A DNA stretch of 64,000 nucleotides from Paracoccaceae bacterium (GTDB lineage: Bacteria; Pseudomonadota; Alphaproteobacteria; Rhodobacterales; Rhodobacteraceae), in assembly GCA_902554885.1 (NCBI GenBank), contig CACDPV010000001.1:62001-126000 (forward strand). Direction: 5' to 3'. This document shows positions 7,993-15,257 of the stretch, piece by piece. Numbering within the stretch: position 1 is the stretch's first letter; each line of letters opens with the position of its first letter. The translations under genes were made by a program, and so were the position numbers. Below the pieces are notes generated by a model that saw only the letters and a program-made list of their open reading frames with translations, had not been told where the DNA came from and did no database searches.

Positions 7993-10476
7993 TTAATCTA
8001 GATTACGCTCAATTTCTTGGCGCTCGAAAATCTCTATGACATCATCATTTCGGATATCTTCATAATTCTCAAAAGCCATACCACATTCTTGGCCTGATTG
8101 AACTTCAGGGACTTCATCTTTGAAGCGTTTTAATGTTTTTAGGGTTCCTTCATGTATTACCACATTGTCACGCAATAAGCGAACACCAGCACTACGTCTT
8201 GCAACGCCCTCTGTTACAATACAACCTGCAACTTTACCTACTCCAGAAACTTTGAAAACCTCTTTAATTTGAGCATAACCAATAAAATTTTCTCGGATTT
8301 CGGCTGATAGAAGACCACTTGCTGCAGCTTTAACATCATCAACGAGGTCATAGATTACGGAATAATATCTGACCTCTACACCCTTTTGACTAGCCACCTG
8401 GCGAGCCGAAGCATTCGCACGAACATTAAATCCAATTACTGGTGCATTAGAAGCTTCAGCTAGGCTAACGTCTGTGTTTGTAATAGCCCCGACACCATAG
8501 TGTAGTACACGCACTCTTACTTCTTCATTTCCAATTTTTTCCATTGCTTGTACAATTGCTTCTGCAGAACCTTGCACGTCAGCTTTAACTAAAATTTGAA
8601 GCTCTGAAACATTTTCATCTTCTTTAGCTTTTGCCATCATTTGTTCCAAGGTTGATGCACCAGCAGTCGCTCTCTTCTCTTTTGCAACTGCAATCCGGTA
8701 ATCTGCAATTTCTCTTGCTTGGGCTTCAGTTTCAACAACATTCAAAACATCACCAGCTTCAGGTGTTCCATTCAATCCTAATACTTCGACAGGTACTGAC
8801 GGCCCCGCGTTCTCAACACGTTTACCTTGGTCATTAATAAGTGCTCTAACTTTACCCCACTGCTCGCCCACTACGAAAATGTCACCCTGTTGTAACGTAC
8901 CGCGCTGAACAAGTACCGTTGCTACTGGTCCGCGGCCTACATCTAGTTGTGCCTCTATAACTGCACCTTGAGCGGCCCTTTCTGGATTTGCAGTAAGTTC
9001 CAGTATTTCAGCCTGCAGCGCTATAGCTTCCAGTAATTCATCTAGTCCTGCTCCACTTATAGCGGAGACTTCAACATCTTGAACCTCGCCAGATAGTTTC
9101 TCCACAATTACTTCGTGTTGAAGTAGATCAGTCCGTACTTTGTCTGAATTGGCTTCGGCGCGGTCAATTTTGTTAATTGCAACAATCATTGGCACATTCG
9201 CAGCCTTAGCATGATTGATAGCCTCTACTGTCTGAGGCATTACAGCGTCGTCTGCAGCTACAACTAAAACCACAATATCTGTAACCTGGGCACCTCTTGA
9301 ACGCATCGAAGTAAAAGCAGCGTGTCCTGGAGTGTCAAGAAAGCTTATAACATCACCTCTTTTTGTCTCGACTTGGTATGCGCCAATATGCTGGGTAATT
9401 CCACCTGCTTCCCCCGCTGTTACCTTGGTATCTCTAATTGCATCGAGCAAAGATGTCTTGCCGTGGTCGACATGACCCATGATTGTAACTACCGCTGGCC
9501 GTGGTTTTAAGTCAGTCTCTGCATCTGTTACCTCGTTGATAACATCTTCAACGTCCGCGTCAGAAACTCGAACAATCTTGTGTCCAAATTCTTCGACAAT
9601 TAACTCTGCGGTATCAGCATCAATAACCTCATTTTGGGTTACCATCATGCCCATTTTCATGAGCGCTTTTACGACTTCAGCTACACGTTCAGCCATCCTG
9701 TTTGCTAATTCAGAAACCACTATCGCTTCAGGAACTTGAACGTCTCTGACAACTTTCTCGCGCTCCTGCATTTGGCCCATCGCCTTTTGACGGGCTCTTT
9801 CTTGTTTGCGCCTCATTGCGGCCATTGATTTTTGTCGACCACCTTCGCCTTCCAAGGCTTGACTAATGGTTAGCTTACCAGATCGCCGTCCAAATCCTTC
9901 ACGCCCTTTAGTGTTTCTTCTTTCGCTAGGTTCGTCCGCACGGGTCTTCTTTCTTTGAGCTGATAGAGGGTTTTTTTGATCTTTCAGTACAGTGTCGGGA
10001 TCACCCTTTGGTACTGGTGCATTAAGGGCCGCTTGTTTTACTAACTCTTCCGCTTCTATCTTTGCTCTTTCTTCATCAGCCTTTTTGCGAGCCTGACTTT
10101 CAGCATCGCGTTGTTCTTTTTCTTTTGCTTCCTGCTCGGCTATTTTTCTATCACGTTCCTCTTGCCGTGTCTGTTCTTCAGCAATGCGTTCAGATTTTTC
10201 TTCAGCTTCGCGGGCTTTTGCAGCCTGCAAAGCTTTCATTCGACGTTCCATTTCCGCATCTGTAACACCTGAAGGCCTTGCACTTGCAGTTTTTTCAGAT
10301 TCTTGCGTACTACCATCCATAGTTTTTGCTGTAACTGGTTTTGGAACAACTACACGTTTGCGTTTGGTTTCGACAACAACACTCTTGCTACGTCCGTGGC
10401 TAAAGCTTTGTTTGACATTACCTGCTCGGGGACCACCCCGTAAACCTAGAGTTTTTTTGCCATCACTATCGCTCAT
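7993..10476 (-). CDS. infB: Translation initiation factor IF-2
   Basis: The GTPase that brings initiator tRNA to the 30S subunit. The product is 827 aa. Residues 1-240 are a charged, Ala/Glu/Lys/Arg-rich low-complexity arm, as in alphaproteobacterial IF-2, with long predicted helix around 75-150. The GTPase domain begins near 328, with G1 GHVDHGKTS (334-342), G3 DTPGH (381-385) and G4 NKID near 436. Domains II to IV follow, including the C-terminal tRNA-binding barrel. It is the last gene of the rimP-nusA-ylxR-infB operon and overlaps the preceding gene by 11 nt. Confidence 0.98.
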
Positions 10477-11104
10477 TTAGTTGTCTTTTCCTTTCAGGTG
10501 ATTTTTCACCAAATTTTCGTCGAAGACCCTTTAACCGGTGTGCTTCCTGTACTATACGTTTAGCTAAACCGCCAGACGTAACTGCACAATGAATTGCATT
10601 TTGTCTCTCAAATGCCTCTCCCAGCTCAAGTGCACTTAAGCATCCAATAAATTTTGCGTTATCAGGAGTACTAAGTTTTGCCTTTCCTCGACCGGAGCCA
10701 TCATAGGCTTGTATCAGTACCGAAACTTTATCTTTTGACAGTAATTCTTTGACTTTCTCATAACCACATACCGCTTGGCCAGCTTTACGTGCCAGACGGA
10801 TCATATCTAGTAATCTTTTTGATTGGAGGTTTTCTATCTCGCAAATCAAACCCTCTTTAATCTTCAAACTTTTTTTAGCCGACTTCTCAAAAAGGTTTTT
10901 TTCTATAGCCAATTTCAAAGATGACTGATTGGCCGAGACCCAAAAACCCCTTCCAGGGAGTTTGGCAGCTAAATCTGGCAAAATTTGATTATCAGGATCA
11001 ATTATAAAACGGTACATTTCGTCTCGATCTCTGATTTCGCCAGTCACGATACACTTTCTTTCATTACTAAGTAGTGTGTCTTTATGTTCAACAGTATCTA
11101 TCAT
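10466..11104 (-). CDS. YlxR/L7Ae-like RNA-binding protein (DUF448 fusion)
   Basis: A 212-aa protein combining two small RNA-binding folds. The N-terminal half has the YlxR (DUF448) marks ERKCIVTGE (15-23), RF(I)IDP and GRGFWVS (about 51-57). The C-terminal half resembles the L7Ae/YlxQ fold, with a helix [21 protein letters not shown]. In Firmicutes the two are separate genes in the same operon; alphaproteobacteria commonly carry this fused form. It lies between nusA (13-nt gap) and infB (11-nt overlap). YlxR of Gram-positive bacteria has been reported to bind RNase P RNA; whether that holds here is unknown. Confidence 0.88.
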
Positions 11105-11117
11105 GCCGGCTTTCTAA

Positions 11118-12719
11118 TTAATTTTCCTCTTCTGTTCCTAAAGAATTTGTAGGAGCAATATCATCTGGATTTACCCATCCAAGGATAACCCGTGCCGTCA
11201 TAACTAAATCTTGAGCCTCCTCAAGGCTAACCCCAAAGTTTTCCAAAAGCCCATCATCTTTGACCCGTTCACCATCGACCGTTGTCCAACCGCCTGCGAG
11301 TTCCCAGTCGGCACATTTTGCGAACTCTTCGACAGATTTTATGCCGTCATCAGCCAGCGCAATTAGCATTTTCGGAGAGAGACCGTCAAAGTTTAGCAAT
11401 GCTTCTTCTACACCTAGCTCCCGCAACTTTTCGAGAGCTTCCTGAGTTTCCTTCTCAATGAACTCGCGGGCTCTAGTTTGCAATTCACTGGCGGTCTCTT
11501 CATCCAAACCGTCAATTACCATTAACTCATCTAATTCTACATAAGCTACTTCTTCCAGACTAGCGAAGCCCTCAGAAACGAGTAATTGTGCAAAAAATTC
11601 GTCTAAATCTAGAGTTTCCATGAACAAGGTAGTGCGCTCCTCAAATTCTTTCTGGCGTCGCACTGATTCCTCAGCCTCAGTCAATATATCAATATCAAGA
11701 TTGGTTAACTGGCTTGCTAAACGAACATTTTGTCCTCTGCGCCCAATTGCAAGAGATAGTTGATCATCTGGAACAACTACCTCGATTTTTCCAGCTTCTT
11801 CATCTAGAACAACTTTGGTCACTTCTGCAGGCTGCAAAGCGTTAACTAAAAATGTTGGTTGGTCATCGTTCCACGGAATAATATCAATTTTCTCACCTTG
11901 TAATTCGTTTACTACTGCTTGCACACGACTTCCTCGCATACCGACGCAAGCTCCCACTGGATCAATTGAACTATCGTTGGTGAATACTGATATTTTTGCG
12001 CGTGATCCAGGATCTCTTGAAACAGACTTTATTTCGATAATTCCTTCGTAAATTTCTGGCACTTCCATTTTAAATAGCTCAGCCATAAATTCGGGGGCGG
12101 TTCTTGATAAAAAGATTTGAGGGCCTCTCATCTCTCTTCTTACTTCCTTGATATAACAGCGAATTCTATCTCCTGAGCGGTAACTTTCTCTGCCAATTTT
12201 CTCATTTCGGCGAAGCATTGCCTCACCTCTACCAACATCAACTATGACGTTTCCGTATTCTTCGCGTTTCACGACTCCATTTATAATAGTACCAGCACGA
12301 TCCTTAAATTCTTCGAATTGCCTATCGCGCTCGGCTTCTCGCACTTTTTGCAAAATTACTTGTTTAGCTGATTGAGCCGCTATGCGCCCCATATCTACTG
12401 GGGGTATTTCCTCAATGAATTGCTGTCCAACTTCTGGATTTTCCATGTACTGCTTCGCCTGTTCCACAGTCATCTCAGCCTGATAATTCTCTAACAATTC
12501 TTCTTCGACAACTGTACGGACACGTCGAAATGTTGCTCGGCCAGTCTTCCTGTCAATGGACACTTGTATATCCATTTCAGAGCCATAGCGTGATTTAGCT
12601 GCTCGTGCTAAACTCTCTTCCATTGCTTCCACTACTAGACTTGGGTCTATCATTTTTTCGCGTGCTACAGCCTCAGCCGTTTGCAATAGTTCTAACTGAT
12701 TTGCAGAAGTTATAGCCAT
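11118..12719 (-). CDS. nusA: Transcription termination/antitermination factor NusA
   Basis: An RNA polymerase elongation factor acting in pausing, termination and antitermination. The 533-aa product shows the expected order: N-terminal polymerase-binding domain (1-130), S1 domain (about 137-200), two KH domains (GACVGMRGSRV near 256 and AIGRRGQNVRLASQL near 325), then C-terminal acidic helix-hairpin-helix repeats (from about 365). The acidic repeats are typical of proteobacterial NusA. It follows rimP by 24 nt. The operon leader contains a terminator-like hairpin, which makes autoregulation by NusA a reasonable inference. Confidence 0.97.
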   Translation of the reverse strand: MAITSANQLELLQTAEAVAREKMIDPSLVVEAMEESLARAAKSRYGSEMDIQVSIDRKTGRATFRRVRTVVEEELLENYQAEMTVEQAKQYMENPEVGQQFIEEIPPVDMGRIAAQSAKQVILQKVREAERDRQFEEFKDRAGTIINGVVKREEYGNVIVDVGRGEAMLRRNEKIGRESYRSGDRIRCYIKEVRREMRGPQIFLSRTAPEFMAELFKMEVPEIYEGIIEIKSVSRDPGSRAKISVFTNDSSIDPVGACVGMRGSRVQAVVNELQGEKIDIIPWNDDQPTFLVNALQPAEVTKVVLDEEAGKIEVVVPDDQLSLAIGRRGQNVRLASQLTNLDIDILTEAEESVRRQKEFEERTTLFMETLDLDEFFAQLLVSEGFASLEEVAYVELDELMVIDGLDEETASELQTRAREFIEKETQEALEKLRELGVEEALLNFDGLSPKMLIALADDGIKSVEEFAKCADWELAGGWTTVDGERVKDDGLLENFGVSLEEAQDLVMTARVILGWVNPDDIAPTNSLGTEEEN

Positions 12720-12743: not shown

Positions 12744-13301
12744 CTAGGTCTCGATTTCGTCAAAGTTTTCTTCATTTAAAATAGTCGTTTTTGTATTTTT
12801 TTTCTTAAGTATTTGCTTGATCAAATCATCTGATAAAATTAATTTTGCGTCTGATAGCCAATTAAATTCCAAACCGACTGTGCCTTCTTCAAGATTGATC
12901 AGCACTTCATCGTTACTAATTCCAGCTAAAATACCTTTAAACCTACGTCGCCCATCAATGAGTTCTGTAGTTTCTAGTTTGGCTTCAAACCCTTGATAAT
13001 TGTCAAAATCTTTTTTTCTTGTAAGCGGTCGATCGATGCCGGGGCTCGAGATCTCCAATGTATAATTTTCCGCTATTGGGTCTTCTACATCAAGTATTGT
13101 TCCAATTGAGGTATTTATATTTGCCAAATCATCAACCCCGATTTGCCCGTTCATGCGATCTGCCATAATTTGGAGGGTACTAGTATCGCCACTGGACAAT
13201 CTAATGCGCACCATCTCAAAACCCAAATCTTCTAAAATGGGATTTAAGAGTTCTGCAAGTTTTTTGTCCATATTGGATTTTGCTATTAAGTTATTAATCA
13301 T
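12744..13301 (-). CDS. rimP: Ribosome maturation factor RimP
   Basis: A 185-aa protein needed for 30S subunit maturation. I chose the ATG at 13301 because the following MINNLIAKSN-DKKLAELL aligns with the usual start of the family in Rhodobacterales. A reading frame open to 13451 would translate across the hairpin/terminator element upstream and is not credible. An ATG at 13271 is a less likely alternative. Key conserved segments are LEDLGFEMVRIR, LDVEDPI and LEISSPGIDRPLTR. Ribosome-binding sequence is weak (GAG at about -7). First gene of the operon; the oligo-T end of the leader terminator lies only ten bases before the start codon. Confidence 0.93.
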   Translation of the reverse strand: MINNLIAKSNMDKKLAELLNPILEDLGFEMVRIRLSSGDTSTLQIMADRMNGQIGVDDLANINTSIGTILDVEDPIAENYTLEISSPGIDRPLTRKKDFDNYQGFEAKLETTELIDGRRRFKGILAGISNDEVLINLEEGTVGLEFNWLSDAKLILSDDLIKQILKKKNTKTTILNEENFDEIET

Positions 13302-13311
13302 TATCTCAAAT

Positions 13312-13335
13312 AAAAAAACGGGCCCGCGGCCCGTT
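13312..13335 (-). terminator. Intrinsic terminator before rimP (possible attenuator)
   Basis: A perfect 8-bp stem, AACGGGCC / GGCCCGTT (13335-13328 and 13324-13317 on the minus strand), with loop GCG, runs straight into seven T residues. It points toward rimP and ends 10 nt before its ATG, so polymerase starting at the promoter upstream must pass it to transcribe the operon. Confidence 0.8.
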
Positions 13336-13378
13336 ACGTTAAATCGGTGGAGTGTAGGTTTCCCAACACGCCGCTGTC
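13312..13378 (-). ncRNA. Candidate structured leader or small RNA upstream of rimP
   Basis: Between rimP and modB the minus strand has a complete transcription unit of about 67 nt. A promoter-like pair ends at 13385. Then comes a hairpin, GUGUUGG-GAAA-CCUACAC, with one U-U mismatch and a GNRA tetraloop, flanked by CGG/CCG pairing, and finally a GC-rich terminator. The element lacks a start codon with a reasonable ORF. It sits directly before the rimP-nusA-infB operon, where leader attenuators (the Rfam rimP-leader family, from memory) have been proposed in other bacteria. It could be an attenuated leader, a free-standing small RNA, or both. Family membership was not tested. Confidence 0.55.
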
Positions 13379-13384
13379 GATCGT

Positions 13385-13413
13385 CGTATAATTGTAATAT
13401 TTTGTATTTGCAA
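13385..13413 (-). promoter_or_regulatory. Sigma-70-type promoter for the rimP leader
   Basis: TTGCAA (13413-13408) and TATACG (13390-13385) on the minus strand are separated by exactly 17 nt. Each box matches consensus at 4 of 6 positions. The predicted start near 13378 lies just before the hairpin element. Confidence 0.6.
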
Positions 13414-13485: not shown

Positions 13486-14178
13486 TTGGAATTAAGCCCT
13501 CAGGAAATAGACGCAATCTTTTTATCTATCAAGGTATCAATTTGGTCTGTTGTCTTTAGTTTATTGCCTGCGGTCTATATCGCCTATGTTTTATCCAGAA
13601 AAAATTTCTGGGGCCGCCAGGCACTTAATGTTATAGTCCATATTCCGTTAATACTCCCTCCCGTAGTCACCGGATATTTTTTATTGATCTTATTTAGTCG
13701 GACCGGGTTAATTGGACGTTTTTTAGATACCTATTTTGGAATTACAGTTGCCTTTCATTGGTTCGGAGCCGTGCTAGCCGCTGCTATAATGTCTTTTCCA
13801 TTGATGGTTCGAGCTTTCAGATTAGGCTTTGAGAGTGTCGATCCAAAATTAGAAGTGGCTGCGTATTCATTGGGCGCAAACAGGTTTATGATTTTTCTCA
13901 CGATAACTTTGCCGTTAGTCATTCCAGCTTTAATAACCGGAGCGGTTTTAGGTTTTGCAAAATCAATGGGAGAATTTGGAGCTACAATTACCTTTGTATC
14001 GAATATTCCAGGCCAGACCCAAACAGTGCCATCGGCAATTTTTGAATTTTTACAACTTCCTGGTAATAATTTTATGACAATAAGATTAGTTTGTCTTTCC
14101 TTACTAATTTCTATCGTAGCGTTGTACATTTCTGAGGTTCTCGCTAGCAGATTAAGTAGCAGAGAGCACCGAGAATGA
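13486..14178 (+). CDS. modB: Molybdate ABC transporter permease ModB
   Basis: An inner-membrane permease for molybdate, 230 aa with about five membrane segments. The ABC-permease EAA loop is clear in EVAAYSLGANRFMIFLTI (near 124-141), followed by GAVLGFAKSMGEFGATI. The start is a TTG at 13486: the frame is closed by a stop at 13471 and no ATG in it lies early enough. The ribosome-binding site is weak. The gene overlaps modC by ATGA. The expected binding-protein gene modA is not present; the upstream neighbour is the divergent rimP leader. Confidence 0.9.
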   Translation: MELSPQEIDAIFLSIKVSIWSVVFSLLPAVYIAYVLSRKNFWGRQALNVIVHIPLILPPVVTGYFLLILFSRTGLIGRFLDTYFGITVAFHWFGAVLAAAIMSFPLMVRAFRLGFESVDPKLEVAAYSLGANRFMIFLTITLPLVIPALITGAVLGFAKSMGEFGATITFVSNIPGQTQTVPSAIFEFLQLPGNNFMTIRLVCLSLLISIVALYISEVLASRLSSREHRE

Positions 14179-15257
14179 GTATCAATGTCAACATTGATAA
14201 GATCATGGGTAACTTCTACCTCAAAACGAAATTTGATGCTGATATCGGTATAACTGCTATTTTTGGACCTTCTGGTGCTGGTAAATCAACGCTGGTAAAC
14301 CTCATCGCCGGGCTAATGAAACCAAATAAAGGTTATATAAAAATATTTAATGAATTAGTTTTCGATAGTGAACAAAAAATCAATGTTCCAGTTAACAAGC
14401 GAGGGATTGGTTTTGTGTTTCAAGATGCAAGACTATTTCCGCACATGAAAGTTGAGGCAAATTTAAAATATTCATCCAGGTTTGGTAGAAGGGGTCAACT
14501 TGGCGCTTTTTCAGAAATTGTGGAGGTTCTAAACTTAGAAGGCATTTTAAATCGACTACCTGAAAACTTATCAGGTGGTGAAAAGCAAAGGGTGGCGATG
14601 GGTCGTGCTTTGCTGAGCAACCCAAAAATACTGATTTTGGATGAACCCTTGGCTAGTCTTGATGAAGGTTTAAAATCAGAAGTTATTCCTTACCTAGAAT
14701 TTTTGCGTGATAATTTTAATTTACCAATTTTGTATATCAGCCATTCCCAATCTGAAGTTGCCAGACTTTCTGATAAAATAGTAGTTCTTGAAAAAGGTAG
14801 CATTCTCGAACAGGGAAAAACCTTGGAAATATTATCCAGTTTCAGTGTCGCAAAGAAATTGGGTTTGAGAGATCTTTCATCGTTTATTGAAGCAACGGTA
14901 TACAATCATGCACCTGATGGTATCACGGAATTAGATTTTGCAGGTTCTAAGTTATTTTTGCCAATGATAGACACGCCTTTAGGTAGAAAAGTTAGTTTAA
15001 GAATCTTAGCAAAAGATATCACGCTCGCGATAGACAAACCTCAAAAGATTTCTGCTCTAAACATACTCAAAGGAGAGGTGGTTGAAATCATATTAGGAAG
15101 TGGACCAGGTGCTGTTATTGGTATCAAAGTTGGAAATCACAAGCTTATTACGCGGATAACGCAACGTTCGCTTAATGCTATGGATTTGAAGCTTGGAAAA
15201 ACTTGCTTTGCATTTTTAAAATCCGTTTCTGTGGCTACTTCCGATATTATTGTTTGA
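14175..15257 (+). CDS. modC: Molybdate ABC transporter ATP-binding protein ModC
   Basis: The 360-aa ATPase of the molybdate importer. Walker A GPSGAGKST is at 31-39, the signature LSGGEKQR at 132-139 and Walker B ILILDEP ending at 158. A C-terminal TOBE domain (from about 290, LKGEVVEIILGSGPGAVIGIKVG) is where ModC proteins sense oxyanion. It starts within the modB stop. Molybdate would supply molybdopterin enzymes such as the xanthine dehydrogenase encoded 8 kb away. Its last 11 bases overlap the end of the convergent small gene. Confidence 0.92.
   Translation: MSINVNIDKIMGNFYLKTKFDADIGITAIFGPSGAGKSTLVNLIAGLMKPNKGYIKIFNELVFDSEQKINVPVNKRGIGFVFQDARLFPHMKVEANLKYSSRFGRRGQLGAFSEIVEVLNLEGILNRLPENLSGGEKQRVAMGRALLSNPKILILDEPLASLDEGLKSEVIPYLEFLRDNFNLPILYISHSQSEVARLSDKIVVLEKGSILEQGKTLEILSSFSVAKKLGLRDLSSFIEATVYNHAPDGITELDFAGSKLFLPMIDTPLGRKVSLRILAKDITLAIDKPQKISALNILKGEVVEIILGSGPGAVIGIKVGNHKLITRITQRSLNAMDLKLGKTCFAFLKSVSVATSDIIV

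Follow-up and report, generated by a model that had tools for sequence, protein, structure and literature searches.

The leader in front of rimP has been called the most ubiquitous transcription attenuator; as that account describes it, its general form shows no visible antiterminator, so that the manner of its switching was not settled (PMC2965389). A complex gammaproteobacterial version of the rimP-leader has a second, upstream terminator with a potential antiterminator of its own (PMC2965389). In Escherichia coli, the terminators t1 and t2 precede rimP and NusA has a role in its own regulation (PMC6511841), and in Bacillus subtilis NusA-stimulated termination in a leader autoregulates NusA (PMC12288461). 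Within the Rhodobacteraceae, UpsM is described as a terminated 5′ UTR RNA in front of mraZ that undergoes Hfq-dependent cleavage by RNase E, with about 1 in 100 read-through (PMC5089854).

We analyzed a rimP leader in a 64,000-nt stretch of DNA, the whole of which we call the window. On its minus strand, a TTGCAA-17-TATACG promoter, a hairpin and an intrinsic terminator follow one another, and the T run ends 10 nt before the rimP ATG at 13301. We conclude that this unit is very probably a transcription attenuator of the rimP-nusA-ylxR-infB operon. The initial annotation had read the unit as an attenuator in the leader of rimP-nusA-infB, akin to the rimP-leader already known and with an RNA of about 67 nt as the expected terminated product, and our analysis supports that proposal. 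It also adds a probable antiterminator strand at the RNA 5′ end, which the first reading missed.

Architecture of the leader and its operon

The operon lies on the minus strand. The rimP gene (12744..13301; Pfam PF02576, E 8.9e-21, and PF17384, E 1.7e-10; alternative start ATG 13271) is followed by nusA (11118..12719; PF08529 and PF13184), ylxR (10466..11104; PF04296) and infB, encoding IF-2 (7993..10476; PF11987 and others). A putative, weak Shine-Dalgarno sequence, GAG, is located at 13305..13307 before ATG 13301. Divergent from rimP, the plus strand carries genes for the permease of an ABC transporter, listed with a TTG start, and an ATPase with a TOBE domain (13486-15257), possibly of the molybdate type. 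Because these plus-strand genes occupy the DNA from about 13486, no minus-strand upstream neighbor that would need a terminator is seen. The window has no tRNA before rimP of the kind present in E. coli.

All parts of the leader are on the minus strand. The -35 element TTGCAA is at 13408..13413 and the -10 element TATACG is at 13385..13390; the 17-nt spacer between them and the spacing from the -10 to the downstream GCGG are kept in relatives. The predicted transcription start, from promoter spacing, is at about 13378, where most relatives have AACAGCGG. The 5′ strand GCGGC (13370..13374) comes next, followed by the upper hairpin P1b (GTGT-T-GG-GAAA-CC-T-ACAC, 13352..13369), whose stem in the window contains a U.U mismatch and whose GAAA loop is at 13362-13359, and by the P1 3′ arm ACCG (13345..13348). 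The CCG of this arm (13347-13345) can pair with CGG 13373-13371 of the 5′ strand, forming the lower helix P1a, or with CGG 13333-13331 of the terminator left arm, forming a helix that we call B.

The intrinsic terminator hairpin AACGGGCC-GCG-GGCCCGTT (13317..13335) contains GCCGC (13330-13326), the candidate partner of the 5′ strand, and runs into a U-tract of seven T (13312..13318), the end of the predicted RNA. Its stem had been described as a perfect 8-bp GC stem; there are indeed 8 pairs, with 6 of them G-C, and two T of the run pair with A of the stem, so that the term GC stem is slightly loose. The initial description of the -35/-10 pair with its 17-nt spacing, the hairpin, the seven T and the 10-nt distance to rimP is otherwise confirmed. 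The stem CGGGCCGCGGGCCCG plus TTTTTTT at 13333-13312 has the form of a GGGc...gCCC stem followed by a T stretch. Terminator-like sites in the surrounding 10 kb number 15, compared to 8.5 expected (sd 2.8), and the folding energy of the leader is equaled or bettered by 1 of 200 shuffles (z -3.07). The predicted terminated RNA spans 13378-13312 (67 nt), the predicted whole leader is about 77 nt long and the part before the terminator is about 45 nt. The distance from terminator to gene start, 10 nt in the window, is 9-63 nt in 30 leaders.

Conservation across the Rhodobacteraceae

A rimP match was found in 70 of 81 genomes, and the hairpin and terminator were present in all 30 of the rimP upstream regions taken from those 70 (window included; the promoter is masked in one region, L010). 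We built a covariance model, R1, from 30 sequences and ran it on a set of Rhodobacteraceae genomes that represents each genus once. At a threshold of E <= 0.01, it matches 139 of the 149. Six of the ten missed genomes have no rimP match in the assembly (G034, G115, G116, G143, G145 and G180), and four have rimP with a divergent leader (G023, G032, G048 and G130). GCGG and CCGC are still present in G032, G130 and G023; in the G023 leader (L064), GCGG follows a TAAATA box, the loop is CCGC and the predicted fold is not the antiterminator. After secondary matches of L107, L016 and L123 were dropped, 219 elements remained, 214 of them distinct. Two leaders, L066 (G048) and L115 (G137), have kept the rimP terminator and have neither the hairpin with GCGG nor the terminator loop conserved elsewhere.

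Searching 115 genomes of the class with R1 gave 5 matches, 2 of them from the family, under the stricter filters that apply to sets of this size and that can lose weak matches. The three non-family matches are weak (E 1.8e-4 to 5.9e-4); L266 adjoins rimP, and the other two have no significant rimP match in the locus. A divergent relative of the element outside the family is possible. Among 40 further upstream regions, the 25 from outside the family have other leaders by eye, and in the 15 from the family the element is present or divergent. A pattern for the classic GGGC..GCCC terminator is found in 9 of the 25 non-family regions. In leaders of other alphaproteobacterial families (L034, L036 and L038-L044), a (g)TGGGC..GCCC terminator with a T run precedes rimP. 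A box resembling a promoter element, TATTAT or similar, is often present as well, and the intervening sequence and 5′ parts vary by family.

One reading of a promoter, hairpin and terminator that form a complete short unit is that they make up a small RNA gene, whose 67-nt product acts in trans, with read-through into rimP being secondary; such a role has been proposed for Rhodobacter sphaeroides UpsM (PMC5089854), a precedent from the same family. The genomic distribution argues against this reading. Promoter, terminator and short distance to rimP are kept together, and scanning named genomes with a strict pattern gave at least 120 loci, all of which, among those listed, precede rimP: in 119 of 120, tblastn places rimP 10-92 nt downstream, and one incomplete locus, read directly, begins like RimP. 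We found a single copy in the window's own genome (about 53% complete), with no extra copies that would make up a regulon and no free-standing ones. The matched changes between the RNA 5′ end and the terminator loop, described below, also point to a function in cis, with which an added role in trans would be compatible. Overall, we regard a gene that works primarily as a small RNA as very unlikely. Weak extra matches occur in relatives, from E 1.5e-5 among those listed; the one inspected, L118 (G184:C22:11093-11159), is a second, weaker match at E 1.5e-5 with a AACAGCGG hairpin and a strong terminator of other sequence, and has no rimP match in the locus. It could be a free-standing relative or a chance match.

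Local statistics contribute little to the case for the promoter. The surrounding 10 kb contains 20 promoter-like sites, compared to 20.0 expected by chance, and the scan missed the TTGCAA/TATACG pair because its -10 element does not end in T, listing instead two others nearby (13420-13391 and 13380-13351). With such sites at chance frequency and the pair unlisted, the promoter match alone is worth nothing, and the case for the promoter is its conservation. In 203 distinct leaders that keep GCGG, a -10 element is recognized in 194, and in all 194 the best -35 element is 17 nt upstream and starts with TTG (TTGC in 178, TTGA or TTGT in 16). The distance from the end of the -10 to GCGG is 10 or 11 nt in 186 of the 194 (9, 10, 11 and 12 nt in 4, 134, 52 and 4 leaders, respectively). 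Based on this spacing, the transcript should begin at or a few nucleotides from (A)ACAGCGG. By its sequence, the 10-nt gap between terminator and ATG is too short for a promoter plus leader. In the Planktomarina leaders L147 and L169, a family-type -10 is not recognized at the usual place, and the element still fits the strict pattern. As judged from its sequence, the unit is real, family-wide and far beyond chance, because conservation, rather than local promoter statistics, decides the matter.

Hairpin P1 and a probable antiterminator

The initial annotation had looked to relatives for conservation of the hairpins, and they are kept across the family. On A1, an alignment of 30 leaders made with MAFFT, each of the 7 P1b pairs shows two-sided changes, and the whole terminator-state structure has 39 two-sided-change cells compared to 11.4 in shuffles. 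P1a and the terminator stem show no two-sided changes on A1, and P1a shows a few on A2, a larger model-fitted alignment built from 99 loci that still includes the secondary matches of L107, L016 and L123. P1 also has a conserved asymmetric internal loop. The GAAA tetraloop, which the initial annotation had singled out, is local to the window's lineage and finds no support as a defining feature; GGCAAC and ACUAC are examples of other P1 loops in same-genus relatives, and UCCAM occurs in the hairpin region of 122 of 203 family leaders, in what we judged by eye to be the apical loop.

We propose that the leader has a good chance of forming an antiterminator in which GCGGC at the RNA 5′ end pairs with GCCGC of the terminator left arm and loop (helix A), and CCG of the P1 3′ arm pairs with CGG of the left arm (helix B). 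RNAalifold on A1 picks such a three-way junction around P1b over P1a plus terminator; its consensus pairs the 5′ CGGY with GCCG of the terminator left arm and loop, and the CCG of P1 with the left-arm CGG. In the window, helix A would consist of G13374-C13326, C13373-G13327, G13372-C13328, G13371-C13329 and C13370-G13330, and helix B of C13347-G13331, C13346-G13332 and G13345-C13333. Directly after GCGG, opposite a G of the terminator stem, 202 of 203 leaders have C or U. An alternative is that helix A is a pseudoknot with the terminator loop, although this base and the location of pairs 8-56 and 9-55 in the terminator stem speak against it.

Folding calculations place the antiterminator and the terminator close together. 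We used the 187 leaders with exact GCGG and exact CGGGCCGC. When the RNA is exposed up to the left arm CGGGCCGC, helix A is in the minimum-energy fold of 184 of the 187, and pairing of the left arm with upstream RNA averages 0.910, compared to 0.649 with shuffled upstream sequence. In full leaders, the mean gap between the antiterminator and the minimum is 3.4 kcal/mol (sd 2.7, range 0.0-13.7; n=187), and for the window the two energies are -17.9 and -23.7 kcal/mol, respectively, a difference of 5.8 kcal/mol. Folded at full length, 122 of the 187 leaders have the terminator as their minimum-energy fold and 28 have the antiterminator; the remaining 37 have neither by the criteria used. Based on this split and on the energies, terminator and antiterminator are close rivals by computed energy. 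Stepwise folding of the window's leader gives the hairpin alone, then the antiterminator (52-58 nt) and then the terminator (from 61 nt).

These leaders also bear on whether a ribosome translating a leader peptide chooses the fold. A short GTG-started frame can be read by eye in the window's leader, which would suit such coupling, and sensing by translation had been considered at the outset. It finds no support here: an ATG, the presence of which was all that we scored, occurs in only 34 of 187 leaders, and the leader before the terminator offers only its ~45 nt. Coupling to translation is thus highly improbable.

Natural changes at the paired positions provide a comparative view of helix A. 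Counted in register, 185 of the 214 distinct leaders have GCGG/CCGC and 7 have GCGG/CCGU, with a wobble kept. Most positions of helices A and B are invariant and helix B hardly varies; therefore, the support from covariation rests on few changes. We performed two pattern scans of 394 genomes, in which either of two 5′ positions had to differ from the standard sequence. The patterns also specify the flanking bases, both terminator arms and a loop of 4 nt, and they therefore miss other variants. Of the 12 matches, 4 lie in loci that lack rimP, 5 come from rimP leaders whose GCGG end is normal and which were matched internally, and 3 are genuine. All three genuine 5′ changes are compensated in the loop: GAGG/CCUC in G165, and ACGG/CCGU in both G425 and G490, the last counted together with Rhodovulum steppense (L222), which has nearly the same sequence. 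The matched changes thus come from two genera at pair 5-59 and from one at pair 6-58.

On A2, helix A has 3 two-sided cells compared to 0.3 in shuffles, and both the cell count and the covariation score are reached by 0 of 500 shuffles; one helix-A pair has two-sided changes, a result reached by 153 of 500 shuffles. A permutation analysis was carried out on 212 leaders, with L105 and L116 left out as they have no recognized U-tract. Among the 23 with a non-standard 5′ end or loop, it gives p = 0.03 with relatedness ignored, and the standard 5′ end pairs with their loops better on average (-8.0) than their own 5′ ends do (-6.9).

Some leaders depart from the usual pairing. A CUGU or CUGC loop replaces CGC in L020, L024, L027, L104, L108, L055 and L154, where full helix A is impossible in the usual register and only a shifted CAG:CUG pairing could form; a shifted antiterminator register is possible in this group. 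L024 and L055 have also lost the 5′ CGG and kept ACAG, for which CUGU or CUG is a possible partner. L103, L106 and L128 each lose one helix-A pair, uncompensated in the usual register.

A simpler explanation is a rimP-leader attenuator that has no RNA antiterminator. The terminator's efficiency would be fixed or tuned by NusA, P1 would be a protein-binding or pausing element, and the complementarity between 5′ end and loop would reflect coincidence or a weak pseudoknot. For the general rimP-leader, in which they saw no antiterminator, Naville and Gautheret proposed direct recognition by a protein (PMC2965389). Consistent with this explanation, P1 has covariation of its own, in P1b and in the few P1a changes on A2, and helix A is broken in the leaders just described. 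In addition, nine alphaproteobacterial leaders from outside the family with the classic terminator show no consistent antiterminator pairing (p 0.07-0.98), in a small control with guessed start sites. Against these observations stand the three matched and zero unmatched changes from the two restricted scans of 394 genomes. The change in G165 breaks P1a and yet keeps helix A, and L117 has lost the P1 3′ arm and yet keeps GCGG with CCGC. Conversely, L066, L114 and L115, in which the 5′ element and helix A are absent, no longer have the CGC terminator loop. On balance, we find an attenuator without an antiterminator rather unlikely.

Proposed mechanism, candidate sensor and relation to known leaders

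We return to the antiterminator reading and consider it likely, with somewhat more reserve than for the pairing itself, that the attenuator has two mutually exclusive folds, terminator and antiterminator, with NusA as the most likely candidate for the sensor. In the proposed mechanism, the parts, their conservation, the P1b covariation and the few helix-A matches are taken from sequence, the fold order and energies from computation and the sensor from inference. The conserved promoter would start the RNA at or near (A)ACAGCGG, and P1 would fold first. As the left arm CGGGCCGC leaves the polymerase, it could invade P1, GCGGC and GCCGC forming helix A and CCG and CGG forming helix B, with P1b still standing between them. 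The right arm GGCCCG, once it emerges, would have to displace this three-way antiterminator. When the antiterminator is displaced, the terminator would form and the RNA of about 67 nt would be released; when it is kept, the polymerase would read into rimP.

NusA favors hairpin formation. When abundant, NusA, the product of the second gene, would favor the hairpin and termination, and the operon would limit itself. We favor NusA as the sensor because of the B. subtilis and E. coli precedents (PMC12288461, PMC6511841); by this analogy, it is a possible sensor that we name tentatively. A bolder proposal is that P1, with its asymmetric internal loop and UCCAM, is a dedicated sensor that responds to NusA, RimP, a ribosomal protein or a small molecule, in the last case as the aptamer of a riboswitch, and thereby switches the 5′-terminal antiterminator. 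The leader would then be a distinct, family-wide class of regulatory RNA that sets NusA and IF-2 levels, and the released 67-nt RNA may also act in trans. We consider this proposal unlikely, though credible.

Because this leader offers a candidate antiterminator, a promoter at a fixed position and paired changes that occur in nature, the question of switching can be tested directly in cultured Rhodobacteraceae. The covariance model can be used for annotating the leader in many genera, and the analysis suggests how Rhodobacteraceae set NusA and IF-2 levels.

A check against the Rfam rimP-leader family, RF01770 (rimP, 102 positions; gathering cut-off 47 bits), gave no match at the locus up to E 10. 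The same model reached its cut-off in 0 of 21 genomes and 0 of 20 related leaders, and in only 1 of 14 control genomes. Rfam had no gathering-level match in the window. Weak matches around the site, to Bp1_162, STnc50 and CRISPR-DR46 on the other strand and to S414 and snoZ122 on the minus strand, were below cut-off (E 0.2-4.3) and were taken as chance; a match to STnc40 in L057 was weak, below cut-off and located about 35 nt upstream of the element. Within open-licence PMC papers, a set in which absence proves little, we found no published rimP or nusA leader from the Rhodobacteraceae.

In B. subtilis, transcription into the NusA gene is controlled by an intrinsic terminator of its 5′ leader (PMC12288461), an arrangement shared with the leader described here, likely with the same logic. 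The NusA dependence is reported there and inferred here, whereas an RNA antiterminator is proposed here only. The UpsM/mraZ leader is likewise family-wide, with its own promoter, a strong terminator and a predicted refolding between terminator and alternative structures (PMC5089854). It is described as having no other start site for its operon, and here too, by sequence, no promoter lies between terminator and rimP. It differs in operon and sequence and in its length of 268 nt, compared to the ~77 nt predicted here. According to the S5 legend of that report, the alternative fold of UpsM was not recovered in its family consensus (PMC5089854), whereas the alternative fold proposed here is recovered in the consensus.

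A close relative is the rimP-leader of Naville and Gautheret 2010 (PMC2965389). It shares the operon, the terminator right before rimP and the GGGc...gCCC stem (here CGGGCCGC-GG-GCCCG), and the 10-nt distance in the window is within its described terminator-gene spacing of 4-130 nt. The general form, as that account describes it, has no larger conserved element and no visible antiterminator (PMC2965389). What sets the Rhodobacteraceae leader apart from that general form is its conserved 5′ hairpin, together with a promoter at a fixed position and a probable antiterminator strand at the 5′ terminus. Based on the antiterminator consensus, the fold order and the matched changes, we consider this leader a variant of the rimP-leader and not a plain member.
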